Counted from the first letter of the stretch, positions 42,499 to 52,457 are shown. The stretch: DNA of 55,537 nt from Planctomycetales bacterium (GCA_027449865.1 DAIDKV010000256.1:1-55537), one strand, 5' to 3'. The notes: generated by a model from the letters alone, not told the origin. Translations and numbers: made by a program.

Positions 42499-43683
42499 CT
42501 AGAACAGGGCGGCGAAGAAGCCTTTACGGACAGGTTTCTCGACCTCCTCGCCTGGCGGTCGTAGGGTACGGGCCATCTCGAGAAAGACCTGATGCGGTCG
42601 GCTTCCCTTGGCGACATCGGCGATGGGCGCGCCCTGAATTCGTGCGGCCTGGAAGATCTTCGTGGCGTTGGGGATCTCCCAGGAGATGGGCATCTTGAGC
42701 GTCTCCTCGGCCTTGGCCTGCGAGATCTCGGTATCCGAGGAACCTGCGCGGTTGACGACGAGTTTCACGCGGTCGCTCAGCCCCTCGAACTGCTGGAAGA
42801 GCCCGATCAGCCTGGCGGTGTTGCGGAGGCAGGTCAGGTCGAGTTGCGCTACTACCAGAATCACGTCGGCGATTTCCAGGGCGGCGAAGTCGGAGGCCTG
42901 GAGCCCCTTGCTGGTGTCGATGACGACCGTGCTGAACGTCGCCTTGAGCAGACCAAGGAGTCGCTGGAGTGTATCGGGGTCAACACGCGCGACCTCCTCA
43001 ATGGCCTGCGGGCGAGGCAGCACGTAGAGCCCGGTGGCGTGCCTCGTCATTGAGCGTTTGAGCAAAGTGGCGTCGAGGCGTTCGAAGTTTTGGAGGACCG
43101 AGTAGATCGTGTGGTCGGTGACGATGTCCAGGGCGGCGTCGATCGAGCCGAAGACCATATCCAGGTCGACAAGGAGGGTCTCCTGATCACGGGCGACGGC
43201 GAAGGACGCGGCGAGGTTCACGGCGACCGACGTGACGCCGACTCCGCCTGAGGCACCAATTACGGCGACGACTCGTCGATTTCTCGTGGCGGGGGTCTGC
43301 GACTCGCCGCGGCCCCGGAGTAGCCGGCCAACGATCTCGAGGATTTCACTCGGGTCGGCCGGAAGAGTGAGGAATTCGCGTGCTCCCGCGCGGATGGCGC
43401 GGAGGATCAAGGCGCTGTCGCTGCCTCGACTGGCTGGCAAAACGGCGGCATCCGGCAGGGCCCGGGCTATCGTGGCGATAAGGTCGATGGCTTGCTGTGG
43501 ATCGGGATCGAGAGCGACGATAATGAGATCGGGAGCGACCTGGGCCACACGGGAATCGGCACCTCGGTAGACGTCGAGTACCTCGGCTACCCAGAACCCT
43601 CCGATCGTCCCCAGTAAGCGCCGCATCGTCTCACGCGAATCGGCGCTCGGGTCAACCAGGACGATACGGATCAGGTCCTTCAT
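42499..43683 (-). CDS. cpaE: Pilus assembly protein CpaE/TadZ (receiver-like plus ParA-like ATPase)
   Basis: A 394-residue protein. Residues 1-125 form a receiver-like domain (IRIVLVDPSADSRETMRRLL, PDLIIVALDPD, ILRAIRAGAREFLTLP). The second half is a MinD/ParA-like ATPase with GASGGVGVTS (143-152), in which the usual lysine before Thr/Ser is Val; LLVDLDMVFGS and VVIDTSKGL are the later motifs. CpaE/TadZ proteins localise the pilus machine to a cell pole, and altered P-loops are common in the family. It lies 92 bp upstream of the cpaF start. Confidence 0.88.
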   Translation of the reverse strand: MKDLIRIVLVDPSADSRETMRRLLGTIGGFWVAEVLDVYRGADSRVAQVAPDLIIVALDPDPQQAIDLIATIARALPDAAVLPASRGSDSALILRAIRAGAREFLTLPADPSEILEIVGRLLRGRGESQTPATRNRRVVAVIGASGGVGVTSVAVNLAASFAVARDQETLLVDLDMVFGSIDAALDIVTDHTIYSVLQNFERLDATLLKRSMTRHATGLYVLPRPQAIEEVARVDPDTLQRLLGLLKATFSTVVIDTSKGLQASDFAALEIADVILVVAQLDLTCLRNTARLIGLFQQFEGLSDRVKLVVNRAGSSDTEISQAKAEETLKMPISWEIPNATKIFQAARIQGAPIADVAKGSRPHQVFLEMARTLRPPGEEVEKPVRKGFFAALF

Positions 43684-43765
43684 GGGTTCAACTCGCAGGC
43701 TAATGCGGGGGGACAGGCTGATCGCAGGGCCACGATCGGCCCGGGATGGTTCAAATCAAGGAACG

Positions 43766-44860
43766 TCAGGGCCCGTTTAAAGGCTGGGCCGGGGGCAATC
43801 CGTCGGCCTGGGCCGATCCCTGGAGCAGCGACTTCCTGGCGGTGCTGATCCCTCGGATTGGGAGTAATTGGGCGGAAATCGCGGCGGGGATGGCATCCGT
43901 CGAGGGGGTGGCGTCCCTCGAGGGGATGGCTTCGGGCAACTGGGAATCGGCCGTATCCGGTGTGATGGAACCGTCCATCACGATTCTTGTAGGCTGATGA
44001 CCACCCCGGTAGATGTGAACGTGGCGAACTCTCGCCTTTTTTGGAGGAGGTGCTGTCTCGGGCGGTGGTGGTGGAGCGACCACTCGTGCGGCGAGGGTCG
44101 ACTTCAGTTCGTCCAGTTCGCGCTCGAGCCGGGCACGCTCCTCCTCGGCGGCCTTCCACCTTGCCTCGTCGGCCGATGGTTTGGGCGGTACCAGCTTTGG
44201 CTTCGGGGCTGCCACAACTTCGTGATCGTTGACTCCACGAAGAGAGAGAGAGAGCGAGCCTTTCGCCCTCGCCGCGACCAGGACGTCCACCTGATCGGGC
44301 ATTAGCGCAAGCGTGACCGTGCGTGTGGAGAGCGATCGTTCCTCGGCACGTGTGAAGACCTGGCCTGCGGCGAGTACGAGGATATCCTGGAGTATACTCT
44401 CGCCGCGCTGATGGCCTTGCTCCGACTCATACCGAATCACGTCAACCCGGTGGCCCGGGAGGATGAATCCCGAGACACCGCTCTGCTCGGTCACGTCGAT
44501 GGCGAAGGCACGCATTCCCTTGGGAATGTTGGCGACCAGGCCCGGTGGGGTCCCCTTTTGACCAAGCTTTTTCTCGATGACGATGTCGCCTTCGAGCATG
44601 GCCGTCTTGACCCATCGCTCTTCAACATCCTTCGACAACGAGAAAGCACCAGGGGGCACGGCCGATCGGGCTAGGCGGACGACCTTGACCGCATCGCCCT
44701 TGAGAACCTCCTCCTCCTTCAGGTCGCGAGCGGCGACCAGCACATCCTGCGTCTCCTCGACCTTCGCTGGTTCCTGCGCCAGCATTTGCCTGGTCATCAT
44801 CATGGCGACGAGGCCGAAGGCCGCTGCCAGTCCCAGCATCATCAACGATTTACCGTTCAT
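43766..44860 (-). CDS. cpaB: Flp pilus assembly protein CpaB (SAF domain)
   Basis: A 364-residue protein. A signal/anchor (LMMLGLAAAFGLVAMMMTRQ) precedes the SAF domain (DVLVAARDLKEEEVLKGDAV, then RAFAIDVTEQSGVSGFILPG and HRVDVIRY) and an RcpC/CpaB domain (QVFTRAEERSLSTRTVTLAL, LVAARAKGSLSLSLRG). The last 150 residues are a coiled Ala/Glu/Arg stretch then Pro-rich. CpaB is periplasmic and normally works with the CpaC secretin, which is not encoded here. Confidence 0.9.
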   Translation of the reverse strand: MNGKSLMMLGLAAAFGLVAMMMTRQMLAQEPAKVEETQDVLVAARDLKEEEVLKGDAVKVVRLARSAVPPGAFSLSKDVEERWVKTAMLEGDIVIEKKLGQKGTPPGLVANIPKGMRAFAIDVTEQSGVSGFILPGHRVDVIRYESEQGHQRGESILQDILVLAAGQVFTRAEERSLSTRTVTLALMPDQVDVLVAARAKGSLSLSLRGVNDHEVVAAPKPKLVPPKPSADEARWKAAEEERARLERELDELKSTLAARVVAPPPPPETAPPPKKARVRHVHIYRGGHQPTRIVMDGSITPDTADSQLPEAIPSRDATPSTDAIPAAISAQLLPIRGISTARKSLLQGSAQADGLPPAQPLNGP

Positions 44861-44896
44861 GGTCCTGACCTCCTCGAGGCCCGGGGTGGTCGCGAT

Positions 44897-45442
44897 TCAG
44901 ACTGCGAGGAGTCCCGCCCAGGCGAGCACGCCGATTGTCCCGATGGCGATCGGGATGCCGTAAGGGAGGAGCATCATCGACGGCTTGCGTTGTGCGGCCA
45001 GTTCCGAAAGCGCTACAGGGTTTTTGATCGTGAGGACTTCCCGGCCGATCGACTGTGCCAGGGCGAGGTGGCTGAACAGGTTTCCCGAGGCGACCATCAT
45101 CAGCAGCCCGATGAGGCCACCGACCATCGCTGTGGAGAGAAACGCCCAGAAGGTGAGCGCGGGGCCTAGCCAGGCGCCCACACCCGCCATCAGCTTCACG
45201 TCGCCGGCGCCCATCCCTCCGATCGCATAGAGCGGCATCAGGCTCGCCAGGCCAACGGCCGCGCCGGCGAGCGACCAGCCGAGCATCGCCGGGCCACCCG
45301 CCCAGAGGGCATAGACCCAGCCCGCGAAAGCGAAGTGATAGGTTAACCAGTTGGGAACCTTCAGAGATCGGCCATCAATGATGGCCGCCTCGACCAGCAC
45401 GAAGGACACCAGAACCGCGACCTCGCGTGTGACCTCGATCAT
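44897..45442 (-). CDS. cpaA: Prepilin peptidase, TadV/CpaA type (A24)
   Basis: A 181-residue membrane aspartyl peptidase that processes the Flp pilins. The catalytic aspartates are in AAIIDGRSLKVPNWLT (about residue 22) and GGMGAGDVKLMAGVGAWLG (the GxGD motif, about 82-100). Six hydrophobic segments are seen. The short form without methyltransferase domain is typical of Tad systems. ATG 45442 is set by GGAGAGGAG and by homologue length; the frame runs on to 45619. Confidence 0.9.
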   Translation of the reverse strand: MIEVTREVAVLVSFVLVEAAIIDGRSLKVPNWLTYHFAFAGWVYALWAGGPAMLGWSLAGAAVGLASLMPLYAIGGMGAGDVKLMAGVGAWLGPALTFWAFLSTAMVGGLIGLLMMVASGNLFSHLALAQSIGREVLTIKNPVALSELAAQRKPSMMLLPYGIPIAIGTIGVLAWAGLLAV

Positions 45443-45840
45443 GGGTGACTCCTCTCCAGAGACCGCCTTGGCCTGAATCGCCCCGGCTATCCAGCTTTCT
45501 GGGGAGTCGGTTATGCCGATCTCCGCCGGGCTCTCATGGGAAGCTTGTGTCGTATCTCCGGGGGTGTCAAATGGTCTGACTTTCCAGTTGGACACATGGT
45601 CGGGAAGGGATCGTCTCACGGAGAAACCGATCGAGGACCGGGCCAGCGGTTCGCCGATCCGGTCCTCATCGCTGGCGAGGCTATTCGCCCGAGGGCGTCG
45701 GGCTCGCTCGATCTATCAGCATCGGCGGCCGACGGCCGGTTAGGCGAGGCGAGCAGGGATTCCTCGCCAACCGGCCGAGGCACAGAGGGGCTCCCTGGAA
45801 ATTCCGACGGTGTTGAGATCCGCGGACGTACGGCCGGCGA
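45443..45840. other. 398-bp gap between pilin and prepilin peptidase genes
   Basis: No gene is supported here. The region contains the strong hairpin at 45734-45776; otherwise nothing recognisable, apart from the AGAGGAG ribosome site next to the peptidase start. Confidence 0.4.
45734..45776 (-). terminator. Long hairpin after the pilin genes
   Basis: Left arm 45734-45748 and right arm 45763-45776 pair over 14 bp with one bulged A (45742) and a 14-nt loop. Reading leftwards it lies 65 bp after the stop codon of the second pilin and before the machinery genes. It has no T run, but could partly end or stabilise the pilin mRNA, so that pilin is made in excess. Confidence 0.5.
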
Positions 45841-46035
45841 TCACGAACCCGAGGATGTCCCGCCGACCGTACTCTGGACGGTGCTGAAGGTGCCACTGAT
45901 GCTCGTGCCCAGATTCTTGAGCACCGTGATGCAGACGACCACGATCAGGGCCAGCATGACCGCATATTCGACCGCTGTCGGGCCGTCCTCGCTCGCCAGA
46001 AAACGACGGACGCGATTCGCGAGCGCGTGCAACAT
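45841..46035 (-). CDS. flp: Flp-type pilin (second copy)
   Basis: A 64-residue Flp pilin. RRFLASEDGPTAVEYAVMLAL carries the prepilin cleavage site before Thr/Ala-x-x-Glu-Tyr, followed by the hydrophobic helix LALIVVVCITVLKNLG and a short Ser/Thr/Gly tail (ISGTFSTVQSTVGG). It is 89 bp downstream of a near-identical copy; a stem-loop lies between. Confidence 0.92.
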   Translation of the reverse strand: MLHALANRVRRFLASEDGPTAVEYAVMLALIVVVCITVLKNLGTSISGTFSTVQSTVGGTSSGS

Positions 46036-46076
46036 GGAAAGTACTCCTTCGGTAGAAAGCCACGGCGAGGCCTGGT

Positions 46077-46099
46077 GAGCCTGGAACGAGACCAGGCTC
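46077..46099 (-). other. Stem-loop between the two pilin genes
   Basis: GAGCCTGG (46077-46084) and CCAGGCTC (46092-46099) form a perfect 8-bp stem with a 7-nt loop, 26 bp after the stop codon of the first pilin. Confidence 0.4.
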
Positions 46100-46124
46100 A
46101 GATCTCCTCGCGCGGCCTGCTCGA

Positions 46125-46313
46125 TCAAGAGCCGCTGGTACCGCCCAGCGTACTCTGCACCGAACTGAAGGTTCCGCTGATGCTCGTGCCGAGGTTCTTG
46201 ATCACCGTCACGCAGACGACCACGATCAGAGCCAGCATGACCGCATATTCGACGGCCGTCGGGCCGTCCTCGCTCACCAGGAATTGTCGGACTCGGGCCA
46301 GGGCGCCATTCAT
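46125..46313 (-). CDS. flp: Flp-type pilin (first copy)
   Basis: A 62-residue Flp pilin, MNGALARVRQFLVSEDGPTA, then VEYAVMLALIVVVCVTVIK and NLGTSISGTFSSVQSTLGG. It is the promoter-proximal gene of the Tad locus. A strong ribosome site (AAAGGAGATCGAG) precedes ATG 46313. It differs from the second copy mainly at the N-terminus and in a few conservative changes, so the pair arose by tandem duplication. Confidence 0.92.
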   Translation of the reverse strand: MNGALARVRQFLVSEDGPTAVEYAVMLALIVVVCVTVIKNLGTSISGTFSSVQSTLGGTSGS

Positions 46314-46463
46314 CTCGATCTCCTTTCCATCGAACAGACTGTCGGCGGGATGAGTGGTGGACGAGGTCCACCGGAGAGATTCGGATCGCCCGGCTGTCAT
46401 GAAGCACCACCTTCACCTCTTGGCGTCGCGGGCCTCATTCCTGGATTCACCGGGCTCATTGGA

Positions 46464-48536: not shown

Positions 48537-51500
48537 TCAGCGACCGCCGCGCAGGGCCTTCTCGATCGCCGTCCTGAGCGCATCGCCCCGCAACCCCGAC
48601 GCCACAATCGTTCCATCAGGCCCGATCAGGAACGTCGAGGGGATCGCCGTCGCGCCGTAGTCGTCGACGACCGCCGCATCAGGGCCGACGCAGGCCTGGG
48701 TCCAGGTCATCTTTTCCGAGGCGATGAAGGATTTGATGTCGTCTGGCCTCTCATCGAGGCTCATCGAGACGATCGCGAACCTCGAATCGGAGCCGAACGC
48801 CTGTTGCAACGCCGAGAGGTTCGGTAGCTCCGCGACGCAGGGGGCGCACCAGGTCGCCCAGAAGTCGAGCAGAAGGAACTTTCCGCGGAAGTCGCCCAGA
48901 CCCAGGCGTTTGCCGTCGAGAGTCTCGATGGCGAAACCGGGCGCCTTCTCGCCGACCTTCAGCGTCCGCCCGCCCAGCTCTCGGGGCGCGATCGTGCCGA
49001 GGTCGAGCGGCGGATCCTCGAACGATCCGCTGACCGAGAACTCCCGTTCATACGCGGCGATCAGCCGCCCCCAGCCGCAGGCATCCGGTGGAGGCGGCTC
49101 GTGGAGCGCGATCTTCATGGAGTACGTTCCGGGCGGAAGATCGAGGGCTCGGAATCGCCCTTTCTCCATAAGCTCGACGCCGTAGGAAGACTCCCGACCT
49201 TTCGGGGCCTTCAGCTCGATGGAGGCCTTGCGGACCATCGCATGGACATTCTCGGGGATCTGTAGATTTCCCGTGACCATGCGCCCCGACTCGCCGATCC
49301 GTAGCGAGTAGGATCGGCCGGGCTCGACGTCGATCGTCGCCACCGGGACGTAGAAGAACCGCCGTTCCGCGCCGTTAGGACTCATGCGGCGGAGGCTTCG
49401 CCGGCCCGCCATCACCCGCCGCAGCGCGAAGCGACCATCGACGTCCGTCTGAACGTTATATCGGATGTCGAGTCGGGGCTCGCCGAAGACCTGCCTTCCT
49501 CCGTTTTCATCATTGGCGAGGAGCATCTCCTTTGCGGCCGGCTTGCCGTCGATCTTGATGGTGCCGGTGATCGACGCCCATCGCTGGAGCTGGAGCGTGT
49601 GATCCTCGGGAAGATCGCGACTGTGGACGATCGCATAACCGGCATCCGAGGTGGCCACGAGGGCGAAGTTCCCCCGTTGCGGCGCGAGCGTGAAGTGACC
49701 GTCTAGCCCGACCTTCGATCGATGCTCCGGCCAGGTCGTGCGGTCCTCGATCTCGCCGTTGCGAAAGTCGGCGTAATCGCTCGTATCGGGCTGTTCCGCC
49801 GGGACGAGAGAGACGATGGCACCGACCGCCGGGGAACCGTCGGGGCCGAGCAGGGTCCCGCGGACCGGCTCCCCCTTCACCAGTCGGAACGCGAACGAAC
49901 GCGGCTCGCCATCCCCCGCGAAGCGTCCAGAATTCGCGGCGAGATAGCCATCGGCGGAGACGCGCAGGTCGTACTGGTCGGCCCGTTCGTAGAGCGTGTA
50001 CTCGAAGGCGCCGGGCGTCTTCGTCGCTTCCCTGTCGATGTCGTCCCCATGCTGCCAGATGAGATGCTCCGTACGGTGCCAGACCGTGCCGATGCCGAGC
50101 CGGAACGTCGGGATCGGCCGACCGGTCGCGGCATCGACGACGGTGCCCTTGATCGTGGTTGGCCGCTTCAGCACGATCCGGACGGGCTCGCCGGGGCGAA
50201 GCGAGACGCCCTGGGCCGTGGCGTAGCCCACCGCCGAGACGTCGGCCTTGACCTCATCGCCCGGCGCCTCGTTCCAGGTGAACCGGCCCTCGGCGTCGGT
50301 CTTCAGATCGAGCTGGAGACTCTCCCCACCGCGCCAGGACCGGACGCCCACCCCTGCGCCGGCGATGGGCTTTCCCTCCGGATCGACCGCCTGGCCGCTC
50401 ACCGTGTGGGCTCGCGGGAGCCGAAGAGTGATCCGTTGCGGCTCGCGTCCGACCCGGATCGCTTCCCGGACCGGGCCGAACCCGGCGCTCCGGGCCATGA
50501 GACTCGTGTTCGTCCCTGGTTTCATTCCGAGTCGGAACTGCCCTCGATCATCCGCCTGGATCGGGGGAATCCGGTTTGCGTAACCTCCGTCGTCCCCGAT
50601 CGTGACGGAACCTCCCGCGACCGGCTGGCCGTTGGGATCGACGACGGTCCCCTCGATGGTCGTCCCGCGCGGTGGGAGCCGGAGGGTCGCCGATCCGTCT
50701 CGCAAAGCCGAGAGCGGCCGGAAGGCTTCGAGGTAGAAGCTCTCGCTGTACGGCCACTCGGCCAGGTGGAGATAGTCGTAAGCCGCCAGTTCGATCGAAT
50801 CCGGCTTCTCGGGGATACCGATGAACGACCATCGCCCGTCAACGTCTGTCTTTGTCTTTTCGTAACCGAAGTTGACCCACTGCTTCGACCGCGGATACGT
50901 CTTCTTCGCCGCGATGACGACGGTCGCCCCGGCCACGGACTTCCCGTCTGGGTCCACGACCCGCCCGCGGACGATGGTCGCTTTCTCCATCTGAAAGAGG
51001 AAATGGTCCGGCGGCCTTGGAGCCTCGGCCTTGCGGCTCCAGCGAAACGACTCGCGGACGAGCCCATCCCGCGAGGCTCCGATGTAGACGCTCCGAACCG
51101 CGGCAGGCAAGGGAATTCGCGCTGTGCCCGAGGCGTCGGTCGTCGCCGAGGACTTGTGCTGGGTCGTGGTCCAGATGGAGAGGTCGAGCTTCACGTCCGG
51201 CATCGGGGCATCGGTCAACAGGTCGCGGGCCTCGACCGTTATCTCGGTCGGCTGCGGGGTGGGATCGGGCTCGTCGGAACGAGCTTCAAGGAAGACCGAT
51301 GCCGGCGGCTCCGTCGGCTCATTCCCGGCCGCGCCGAGGGCGACGAGCCCGACCGAGACTATCGAACCCAGGACCAGCACGGCCGCCACGGACACCGACC
51401 GGATGCGGTTCATGAGCAAGCTCCGGATCAGGGAACGAGCCAGGATCGAGACACCGGCCGGGACCGTTCCGCCGGTCGCCGCCGCCAGCGCCGCACGCGA

Positions 51501-52166
51501 CCACGACGCCGCGACCGCGGACGGCCGGGCGAGGTCGAGCGCGGCACTGATTGCCCCGGCCGAGACCCCGCGTCGGATGAGGCGATCGCGCAATCGCTTT
51601 CGCCCCTTCGCCAGCCGGTGATAAACCTTCGGCGCCGTCGAACCGAGCCGGGCCGCGGCCTGGTCGTAGGTCAGCCCCTCCAGGTCGCAGAGCACGACCG
51701 GCAACCGCTCGGCATCGGGCAGCCGATCGAGTTCCTGATGGAGGATCGCCCGGACGTCGAAATCGAGCGAGGGGCGAGATGGGTCGGGGATCTGACGGGC
51801 GTCGGTCTCCGAGAGTCGCGACGGCCGCCGACGCGCCTCGATGTTCCGCTGCATCGCCGCGCGACTCGCCACGCGAAGCAGCCAGCCGCCGAGAGCCTCG
51901 CCCGCACGGATCGAGCCCGCCTTCCGCGCCAGCACGAGGAAGGTCGCCTGAAAGACATCCTCGGCATCGTCCGGATCGCGAAGGATCGCCCGGCACGTCG
52001 ATGCGACCATCGGTCCGTACCGGATCACCAGCGTTTCGAACGCCGACCCGTCGCCCGCATCGGCGTATCGACGAAGCAGCTCGGCATCGCCGAGGCCGAC
52101 GGCCGTGCCGGTGTCGAAGAGGTCACGCAGGTGGTTCAGGTTCGTTCTCAAGGTCCCGCTCGCCAT
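48537..52166 (-). CDS. ECF sigma factor fused through a TM helix to carboxypeptidase-regulatory repeats and a TlpA-type thioredoxin
   Basis: A 1209-residue protein. Sigma region 2 spans about 42-110 (AFETLVIRYGPMVASTCRAI, DPDDAEDVFQATFLVLARKA) and region 4 about 143-200 (LPVVLCDLEGLTYDQAAARL, HRLAKGRKRLRDRL). One membrane helix (about 256-279) follows, then 700 residues of CarboxypepD_reg-like beta-sandwich repeats (GKSVAGATVVIAAKK, GQPVAGGSVTIGDDG, GKPIAGAGVGVRSW), and a C-terminal thioredoxin of AhpC/TSA-TlpA type with WCAPC (1106-1110) and cis-Pro IPSTFLIGPDG. ATG 52166 is right before the sigma domain. The frame continues upstream to 52622 but that part is not sigma-like. A sequestered ribosome site is possible. 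Confidence 0.85.
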   Translation of the reverse strand: MASGTLRTNLNHLRDLFDTGTAVGLGDAELLRRYADAGDGSAFETLVIRYGPMVASTCRAILRDPDDAEDVFQATFLVLARKAGSIRAGEALGGWLLRVASRAAMQRNIEARRRPSRLSETDARQIPDPSRPSLDFDVRAILHQELDRLPDAERLPVVLCDLEGLTYDQAAARLGSTAPKVYHRLAKGRKRLRDRLIRRGVSAGAISAALDLARPSAVAASWSRAALAAATGGTVPAGVSILARSLIRSLLMNRIRSVSVAAVLVLGSIVSVGLVALGAAGNEPTEPPASVFLEARSDEPDPTPQPTEITVEARDLLTDAPMPDVKLDLSIWTTTQHKSSATTDASGTARIPLPAAVRSVYIGASRDGLVRESFRWSRKAEAPRPPDHFLFQMEKATIVRGRVVDPDGKSVAGATVVIAAKKTYPRSKQWVNFGYEKTKTDVDGRWSFIGIPEKPDSIELAAYDYLHLAEWPYSESFYLEAFRPLSALRDGSATLRLPPRGTTIEGTVVDPNGQPVAGGSVTIGDDGGYANRIPPIQADDRGQFRLGMKPGTNTSLMARSAGFGPVREAIRVGREPQRITLRLPRAHTVSGQAVDPEGKPIAGAGVGVRSWRGGESLQLDLKTDAEGRFTWNEAPGDEVKADVSAVGYATAQGVSLRPGEPVRIVLKRPTTIKGTVVDAATGRPIPTFRLGIGTVWHRTEHLIWQHGDDIDREATKTPGAFEYTLYERADQYDLRVSADGYLAANSGRFAGDGEPRSFAFRLVKGEPVRGTLLGPDGSPAVGAIVSLVPAEQPDTSDYADFRNGEIEDRTTWPEHRSKVGLDGHFTLAPQRGNFALVATSDAGYAIVHSRDLPEDHTLQLQRWASITGTIKIDGKPAAKEMLLANDENGGRQVFGEPRLDIRYNVQTDVDGRFALRRVMAGRRSLRRMSPNGAERRFFYVPVATIDVEPGRSYSLRIGESGRMVTGNLQIPENVHAMVRKASIELKAPKGRESSYGVELMEKGRFRALDLPPGTYSMKIALHEPPPPDACGWGRLIAAYEREFSVSGSFEDPPLDLGTIAPRELGGRTLKVGEKAPGFAIETLDGKRLGLGDFRGKFLLLDFWATWCAPCVAELPNLSALQQAFGSDSRFAIVSMSLDERPDDIKSFIASEKMTWTQACVGPDAAVVDDYGATAIPSTFLIGPDGTIVASGLRGDALRTAIEKALRGGR

Positions 52167-52457
52167 GATGGTGCCGCCCTCCCGGAGTATAAGAGGGGCG
52201 GCACCGGCGCTGCGCACGGATTTTTCTTGGGAATGGACCGGGCGGGCGTTCACGGCCCCAGGAAAAGGCCGGCCGACTTCGCAGACGATCCGGAACTGGA
52301 TTAAGTTACCAGGGACCTCAAACCACGGTTCCTGGCGCCTTATCCTGGTCAGAGAAGCTGATCGACCGGATCGCGGCCAGTGGAAGCCAGGGCAAACGGT
52401 GACGCCCTCGTTCACGGTGCGGTAGATTCCGGCCGGATATCCATCCAGGGAGAGGAG
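52167..52457. other. Gap between sigma-fusion gene and dinD remnant
   Basis: No gene seen in these 291 bp apart from the hairpin next to the sigma-gene start. It marks the change from the chromosomal backbone to the accessory region. Confidence 0.4.
52170..52205 (-). promoter_or_regulatory. Hairpin/palindrome at the sigma-gene start with a TATACT box
   Basis: Arms 52170-52180 and 52194-52205 pair (one bulged G). On the minus strand the 3' arm includes the GGGAGGG ribosome site for ATG 52166, and the loop side holds TATACT (52186-52191), a good -10 box. Either the RNA hairpin hides the ribosome site, or the DNA palindrome is an operator over the promoter. No clear -35 was found. Confidence 0.4.

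Follow-up and report, generated by a model that had tools for sequence, protein, structure and literature searches.

How is a sigma factor controlled when it shares one polypeptide with an envelope protein? Planctomycetes are rich in sigma factors that bear long extensions; reviews describe mechanistic work on C-terminal extensions as being in its infancy, and for the group ECF57 they list no anti-sigma partner. Such a gene lies in the 55,537-nt stretch of DNA analysed here, which comes from a Planctomycetales bacterium (GCA_027449865.1 DAIDKV010000256.1:1-55537) and is called the window below. A first-pass annotation had read it as a sigma factor tethered through a membrane helix to an extracytoplasmic thioredoxin that might directly sense envelope redox or a surface ligand. 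Judging from the sequence, we favour, with somewhat better than even confidence, a different reading: an autonomous gene that specifies a regulator together with the envelope protein under its control, with a private promoter and two nested products.

Gene and domain organisation

The gene runs on the minus strand, which the first-pass annotation had not given, from an ATG at 52166 to a stop codon ending at 48537. The start codon is backed by MASGT/MAGGT, kept in orthologs, and GC3 is 0.82 across the complete frame. Its parts are as follows.

48537-52166, minus strand: whole gene, sigma–connector–membrane helix–beta repeats–thioredoxin, a single open frame of 1209 aa
51849-52031, minus strand: sigma region 2, residues 46-106 (PF04542), holding Cys58 (codon 51993-51995)
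51591-51746, minus strand: sigma region 4, residues 141-192 (PF08281), holding Cys160 (codon 51687-51689)
51396-51569, minus strand: connector from region 4 to the helix, residues 200-257, conserved family-wide (held-out HMM test)
51339-51395, minus strand: membrane helix, residues 258-276, from hydrophobicity; would double as signal-anchor h-region in a short form
51237-51338, minus strand: Pro/Ala/Glu-rich disordered stretch, residues 277-310 (pLDDT below 50, start of the outer model)
49017-51236, minus strand: transthyretin-like CarboxypepD_reg repeats, residues 311-1050 (PF13620; all-beta AlphaFold2 model)
48552-48971, minus strand: TlpA/ResA-type thioredoxin, residues 1066-1205 (PF00578; Foldseek match to ResA)

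Pfam matches over cut-off were obtained for Sigma70_r2 (46-106; PF04542, 37 bits, cut-off 24), Sigma70_r4_2 (141-192; PF08281, 40 bits, cut-off 25.7), CarboxypepD_reg (162 bits) and AhpC-TSA (1071-1189), and TIGR02937 scored 65 bits (cut-off 42.9). Regions 2 and 4 are the only Sigma70 regions matched over the family cut-offs, as in an ECF sigma factor. No Pfam match to a fused anti-sigma domain, FecR-like or zinc-finger, was found in the 1209-aa protein. Residues 258-276 form its only strong hydrophobic segment, and no cysteine lies between residues 160 and 1030.

An AlphaFold2 model built with 38 aligned sequences gave both sigma domains well and the connector with low confidence; docking of the connector on the sigma domains was dropped because that confidence was too low. 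By Foldseek, region 2 resembles region 2 of E. coli sigma-E (TMt about 0.84) and region 4 resembles that of SigD/SigR (TMt 0.82-0.87). The outer part is all-beta (mean pLDDT 83) and ends in a thioredoxin resembling ResA (TMt 0.88-0.89), with WCAPC at residues 1106-1110 (48837-48851). This domain thus combines the thioredoxin fold and WCxxC of ResA/TlpA thiol-disulfide oxidoreductases, on what is predicted to be the envelope side, although it scored 83 bits against an NCBIfam ResA subfamily cut-off of 170 and, unlike a stand-alone oxidoreductase, forms the tip of a 1209-aa sigma chain. The intact frame, both sigma regions, the beta repeats and the TlpA-type thioredoxin of the first-pass annotation are therefore all borne out.

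On the plus strand, an 860-codon open frame at 49722-52304 is an antisense shadow of the high-GC sigma gene and not a gene, and a tRNA-Ser(CGA) called by ARAGORN at 48988-49066, antisense within the gene, has no Rfam match and is probably false. Elsewhere in the window, 42499-46416 (minus strand) resembles a Flp/Tad pilus cluster, with a CpaE-like ATPase, a CpaB-like protein, a prepilin peptidase and repeated Flp pilin frames.

A family of sigma factors with exchangeable outer parts

About 29 paralogs of the same sigma-extension plan are present in the window's genome. Of 120 sigma ORFs, 109 have the membrane helix some 61 residues beyond region 4, and flanking charges obey the positive-inside rule in 82 non-redundant relatives (p = 1e-11), supporting the N-in/C-out topology previously proposed. 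What stands behind the helix varies across the family (CarboxypepD_reg, WD40, HlyD, TolC-type OEP, Poly_export/SLBB, Peptidase_M16_C, Peptidase_S41, redoxin), and in some members nothing is recognised there. Within the window's genome, L020, L005, L008, L022 and L009 are sigma-helix chains with a TolC-type OEP, an HlyD adaptor, Poly_export/SLBB, an S41/tricorn protease and an M16 domain; three of these outer parts are export machinery.

Cys58 is kept in 76 of 77 relatives, Cys160 in 73 and both in 72. A conserved cysteine pair that links regions 2 and 4 is a trait of ECF57 (PMC8999054), which the window gene's sigma appears to resemble in this pair, in the long C-terminal extension and in having no anti-sigma gene (PMC8999054); WD40, found in part of that group, occurs here in the paralog L021. 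It differs from ECF57 in its single-pass helix with envelope domains, embedded start and private promoter element. The general kind, an ECF sigma factor with a C-terminal extension, is thus known, as the first-pass annotation had said. Since this pair is shared by the family at large and is not peculiar to members with a thioredoxin, it cannot be taken as support for a transmembrane redox link.

The exact order sigma–helix–repeats–thioredoxin occurs in nine genomes: the window's own, with two copies, and G001, G003, G004, G005, G006, G032, Singulisphaera acidiphila DSM 18658 and UBA4732; Centralia_MAG_199 probably has it too. Neither the window gene nor its orthologs adjoin an anti-sigma gene, in agreement with the first reading, and a search for conserved neighbours or an operon partner gave none in common beyond the closest relative. 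The gene is an orphan.

Three settings were found for homologs of the outer module: following sigma, following an M56 (BlaR1-type) peptidase, or joined to nothing more than a signal anchor. A maximum-likelihood tree of the module needs eight changes between these states, and its well-supported branches demand no fewer than four for sigma and no fewer than three each for M56 and the free form. Both of the closest free forms (46-48% identical) fall within the sigma clade, where the sigma-less L046 and L047 are nested among sigma forms. M56 peptidases fused to the same CarboxypepD_reg repeats are L050, L105, L109, L111, L115, L067 and L035, several of them with the thioredoxin; directly upstream of the Stieleria form (L105) lies a BlaI-type repressor gene. 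Sigma and an M56 peptidase of the kind seen in BlaR1/MecR1 receptors thus serve as interchangeable inner parts; the output of those receptors is cleavage of a BlaI-type repressor, whereas here it is a sigma factor on the same chain. This distribution indicates a module useful alone and coupled repeatedly to different transcription outputs, and the sigma-less state of L046 and L047 suggests that the outer part works on its own.

Possible redox sensing and proteolytic release

The arrangement originally proposed, a one-chain receptor made only at full length whose outer thioredoxin senses redox or a ligand and whose sigma part is freed by site-1/site-2 proteolysis, has a precedent. IutY of Pseudomonas putida (ECF243), a sigma/anti-sigma fusion released by Prc and RseP, is likewise a single chain in which one membrane helix separates a sigma domain from a periplasmic domain (PMC5411451), although the window's protein has repeats and thioredoxin outside and neither a FecR-like anti-sigma domain nor a TonB receptor system. 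Release of the sigma part in the manner of IutY is plausible by this analogy: the window's genome encodes M50 peptidases, along with a DsbD-type reductant protein, and the disordered stretch behind the helix would be accessible to proteases. Signal-peptidase cleavage right behind the helix was considered and rejected, since the AxA motif was not clearly in excess over shuffles.

The intact WCAPC, the ResA-like fold and the recurrence of the module behind M56 peptidases, one adjoined by a BlaI repressor gene, fit such a receptor as well. It nevertheless leaves unexplained both the sigma-less homologs and the embedded start signatures described below. The active-site cysteines are lost in the sigma-fused L051 (AFWATYHGPT), and the HlyD, TolC-type OEP, Poly_export/SLBB, S41 and M16 parts of the sister paralogs look like working envelope proteins. 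With most relatives devoid of thioredoxin and L051 without an active site, redox sensing cannot be the rule of the family; for the window's own protein it is possible. We regard a receptor of full length only as unlikely, though well worth keeping in mind.

A promoter-like element before the gene

The reading of the locus as an autonomous gene draws on its upstream region, where one element stands out.

52186-52224, minus strand: promoter-like element AAAATCCGTGCGC-N15-CCTCTTATACT, once per genome and in ortholog-bearing genomes only

In five orthologs, 50-89% identical as proteins, the upstream sequence has diverged except for a common GAAAAATSSGTGCGC-N15-CCTCTTAYACT. The element occurred once each in 6 of 45 family genomes, always just upstream of the ortholog, and was absent from the 39 family genomes lacking one, including those with the sigma-less form; the site in G001, with three mismatches, was left out of pattern building. 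A wider regulon was sought in vain: no second site lay within two mismatches, a pattern search that degenerate target promoters would escape, and relaxing the pattern added three-mismatch sites only, at about the rate of reversed controls. The element could have been a coded N-terminal extension; this was ruled out, as its spacing to the ATG differs among orthologs by non-multiples of three.

An element of different sequence behaves in the same way in a second sigma–helix–repeat subfamily, represented by GP187 and by S. acidiphila, whose member includes the thioredoxin. AAAGTTG was present in 9 of 77 family upstream regions against 0.5 expected from dinucleotide shuffles, and it alone stood out in a search for dyad motifs common to the upstream regions of the window's own paralogs. 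In the simplest reading, each sigma factor would recognise the promoter of its own gene and have few or no further targets. The element at 52186-52224 is accordingly likely to be an autoregulatory promoter and the window gene's sigma possibly has a one-gene regulon; we infer that this sigma reads the element, which another factor could do instead.

Around the second box of the element a 10-bp inverted repeat, GGTGCCGCCC...GGGCGGCACC, spans 52170-52205; it is lost in distant orthologs. L118 and L129, another sigma-helix pair from different genomes, share an upstream block (42/45) that resembles the S. acidiphila element.

A probable embedded start ahead of the membrane helix

Two nested products would require a second site of initiation, and a candidate is found six codons ahead of the helix.

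51421-51424, minus strand: Shine-Dalgarno-like GGAG, separated from Met252 by 7 nt; across the family such sites are in excess at a gap of 6-11 nt
51411-51413, minus strand: in-frame start codon Met252, which would open a 958-aa exported form (48537-51413)

The short form would start with a brief basic n-region followed by the hydrophobic segment, much like a signal anchor, and would resemble the free homologs L046 and L047. An ATG with a Shine-Dalgarno motif ahead of the helix was found in 46 of 78 genes, mutually related and mostly from Isosphaeraceae and other Planctomycetota, many in metagenome assemblies, where the rate at other positions of these genes predicts 2.3. Because the protein motif EGVLRxM alone could yield an ATG and a Shine-Dalgarno sequence, synonymous codons were shuffled with the protein fixed; 14.4 ± 2.6 genes were then expected, with a maximum of 21 in 200 shuffles. 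The signal is thus selected at codon level, at working distance from the ATG. The glycine of the motif is encoded by GGA in 21 of 27 cases (14% of glycines in the same genes), and the mRNA is less folded than expected around the embedded ATG (p = 2e-5) and not around other ATGs. No excess was seen at 674 other in-frame ATGs (69 observed, 75 expected). An M56 control set comprised 10 genes.

Shine-Dalgarno-like codons directly ahead of a first membrane helix might merely pause ribosomes for co-translational targeting of the helix, with a single product, and 15 genes without the ATG do retain a mild excess of motifs (16 vs 9.7). Motifs are concentrated 6-11 nt ahead of the conserved ATG (56 vs 13.7), with no excess farther upstream, which favours initiation over pausing; the reduced mRNA structure at the ATG likewise speaks against pausing alone, which we hold to be improbable. 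The signal is imperfect in the window's own subfamily: GGAG is lost in L038, and CTG replaces ATG in L045. In distant relatives Met is not conserved at the exact Met252 column, which had pointed to an unimportant residue until the codon-level tests indicated otherwise. Taking the family as a whole, translation of the gene probably yields a tethered sigma factor and, nested within the same frame, a sigma-less exported protein.

Selection on the long form

Separate proteins from internal starts had been set against the one-chain reading in the first-pass annotation. A conserved embedded start is indeed found family-wide; at the same time the long form is kept by selection, since the connector is open and conserved. 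In the held-out test of a connector HMM, 38 of 39 real linkers scored above 5 bits (median 34), while shuffles reached at most 10. Substitution rates between the window gene and its 89% ortholog L038 gave dN/dS values of 0.18 for sigma, 0.22 for the helix, 0.26 for repeats and thioredoxin alike and 0.27 overall, from which we conclude that one continuous coding frame is maintained; only the short Pro-rich stretch behind the helix is loosely constrained, at about 2. The G001 ortholog (L040) has a premature in-frame TAG near residue 834 together with its three-mismatch element, and is either a decaying gene or an assembly error.

A neutral fusion with a decaying sigma part, to which this TAG and the loss of sigma in L046 and L047 might point, is very improbable and largely refuted already, given purifying selection on sigma, conservation of connector and cysteine pair across over 70 relatives, and the private promoter element that has stayed with the gene.

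Discussion

We propose that the window's gene acts as its own regulator. An ECF57-like sigma domain, anchored to the inner membrane through the helix that follows it, would drive the private promoter before its own gene, other targets being undetectable. The mRNA would be translated into two nested in-frame products, the full-length tethered sigma factor and the repeat-thioredoxin protein begun at Met252, which would be exported. The tether most likely restrains the sigma domain until the envelope copy is cleaved or shifts to another state, possibly with release by site-1/site-2 proteolysis as in IutY, and the resulting transcription would raise both products.

Among known systems, Streptomyces ECF52/ECF53 (SCO4117) also have a fused C-terminal membrane extension with outer domains; published descriptions give them a zinc-finger anti-sigma domain plus one or two helices (PMC8999054), and no such domain was found in the protein studied here. 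Two-polypeptide phage endolysins offer a parallel for the nested products, with an in-frame internal start and a shorter product ending at a common stop codon (PMC9430671), although their function is unrelated and in the present case a transcription factor would be paired with an envelope protein. Module exchange, the private upstream element and the family-wide embedded start go beyond the earlier reading. No mention of the embedded start or private promoter was found in the literature searched, which did not include the main planctomycete ECF classification papers, so that some of what is described here for the family may have been published before.

More tentatively, and with rather less than even confidence, Planctomycetes may possess a large family of such self-contained one-gene circuits, each with a sigma factor, a private promoter that would be the one detectable target of that sigma, a tether and a nested start giving a sigma-less envelope copy, these copies including thioredoxin, HlyD, TolC-type, capsule-export, protease and other proteins. 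The embedded start together with the private promoter would explain why the extensions resemble working envelope proteins and why the genes stand without adjoining partners. If this is true, annotating these genes as sigma factors and nothing more conceals a group of exported proteins, and the product of each gene would report on its own envelope copy and set its own level.
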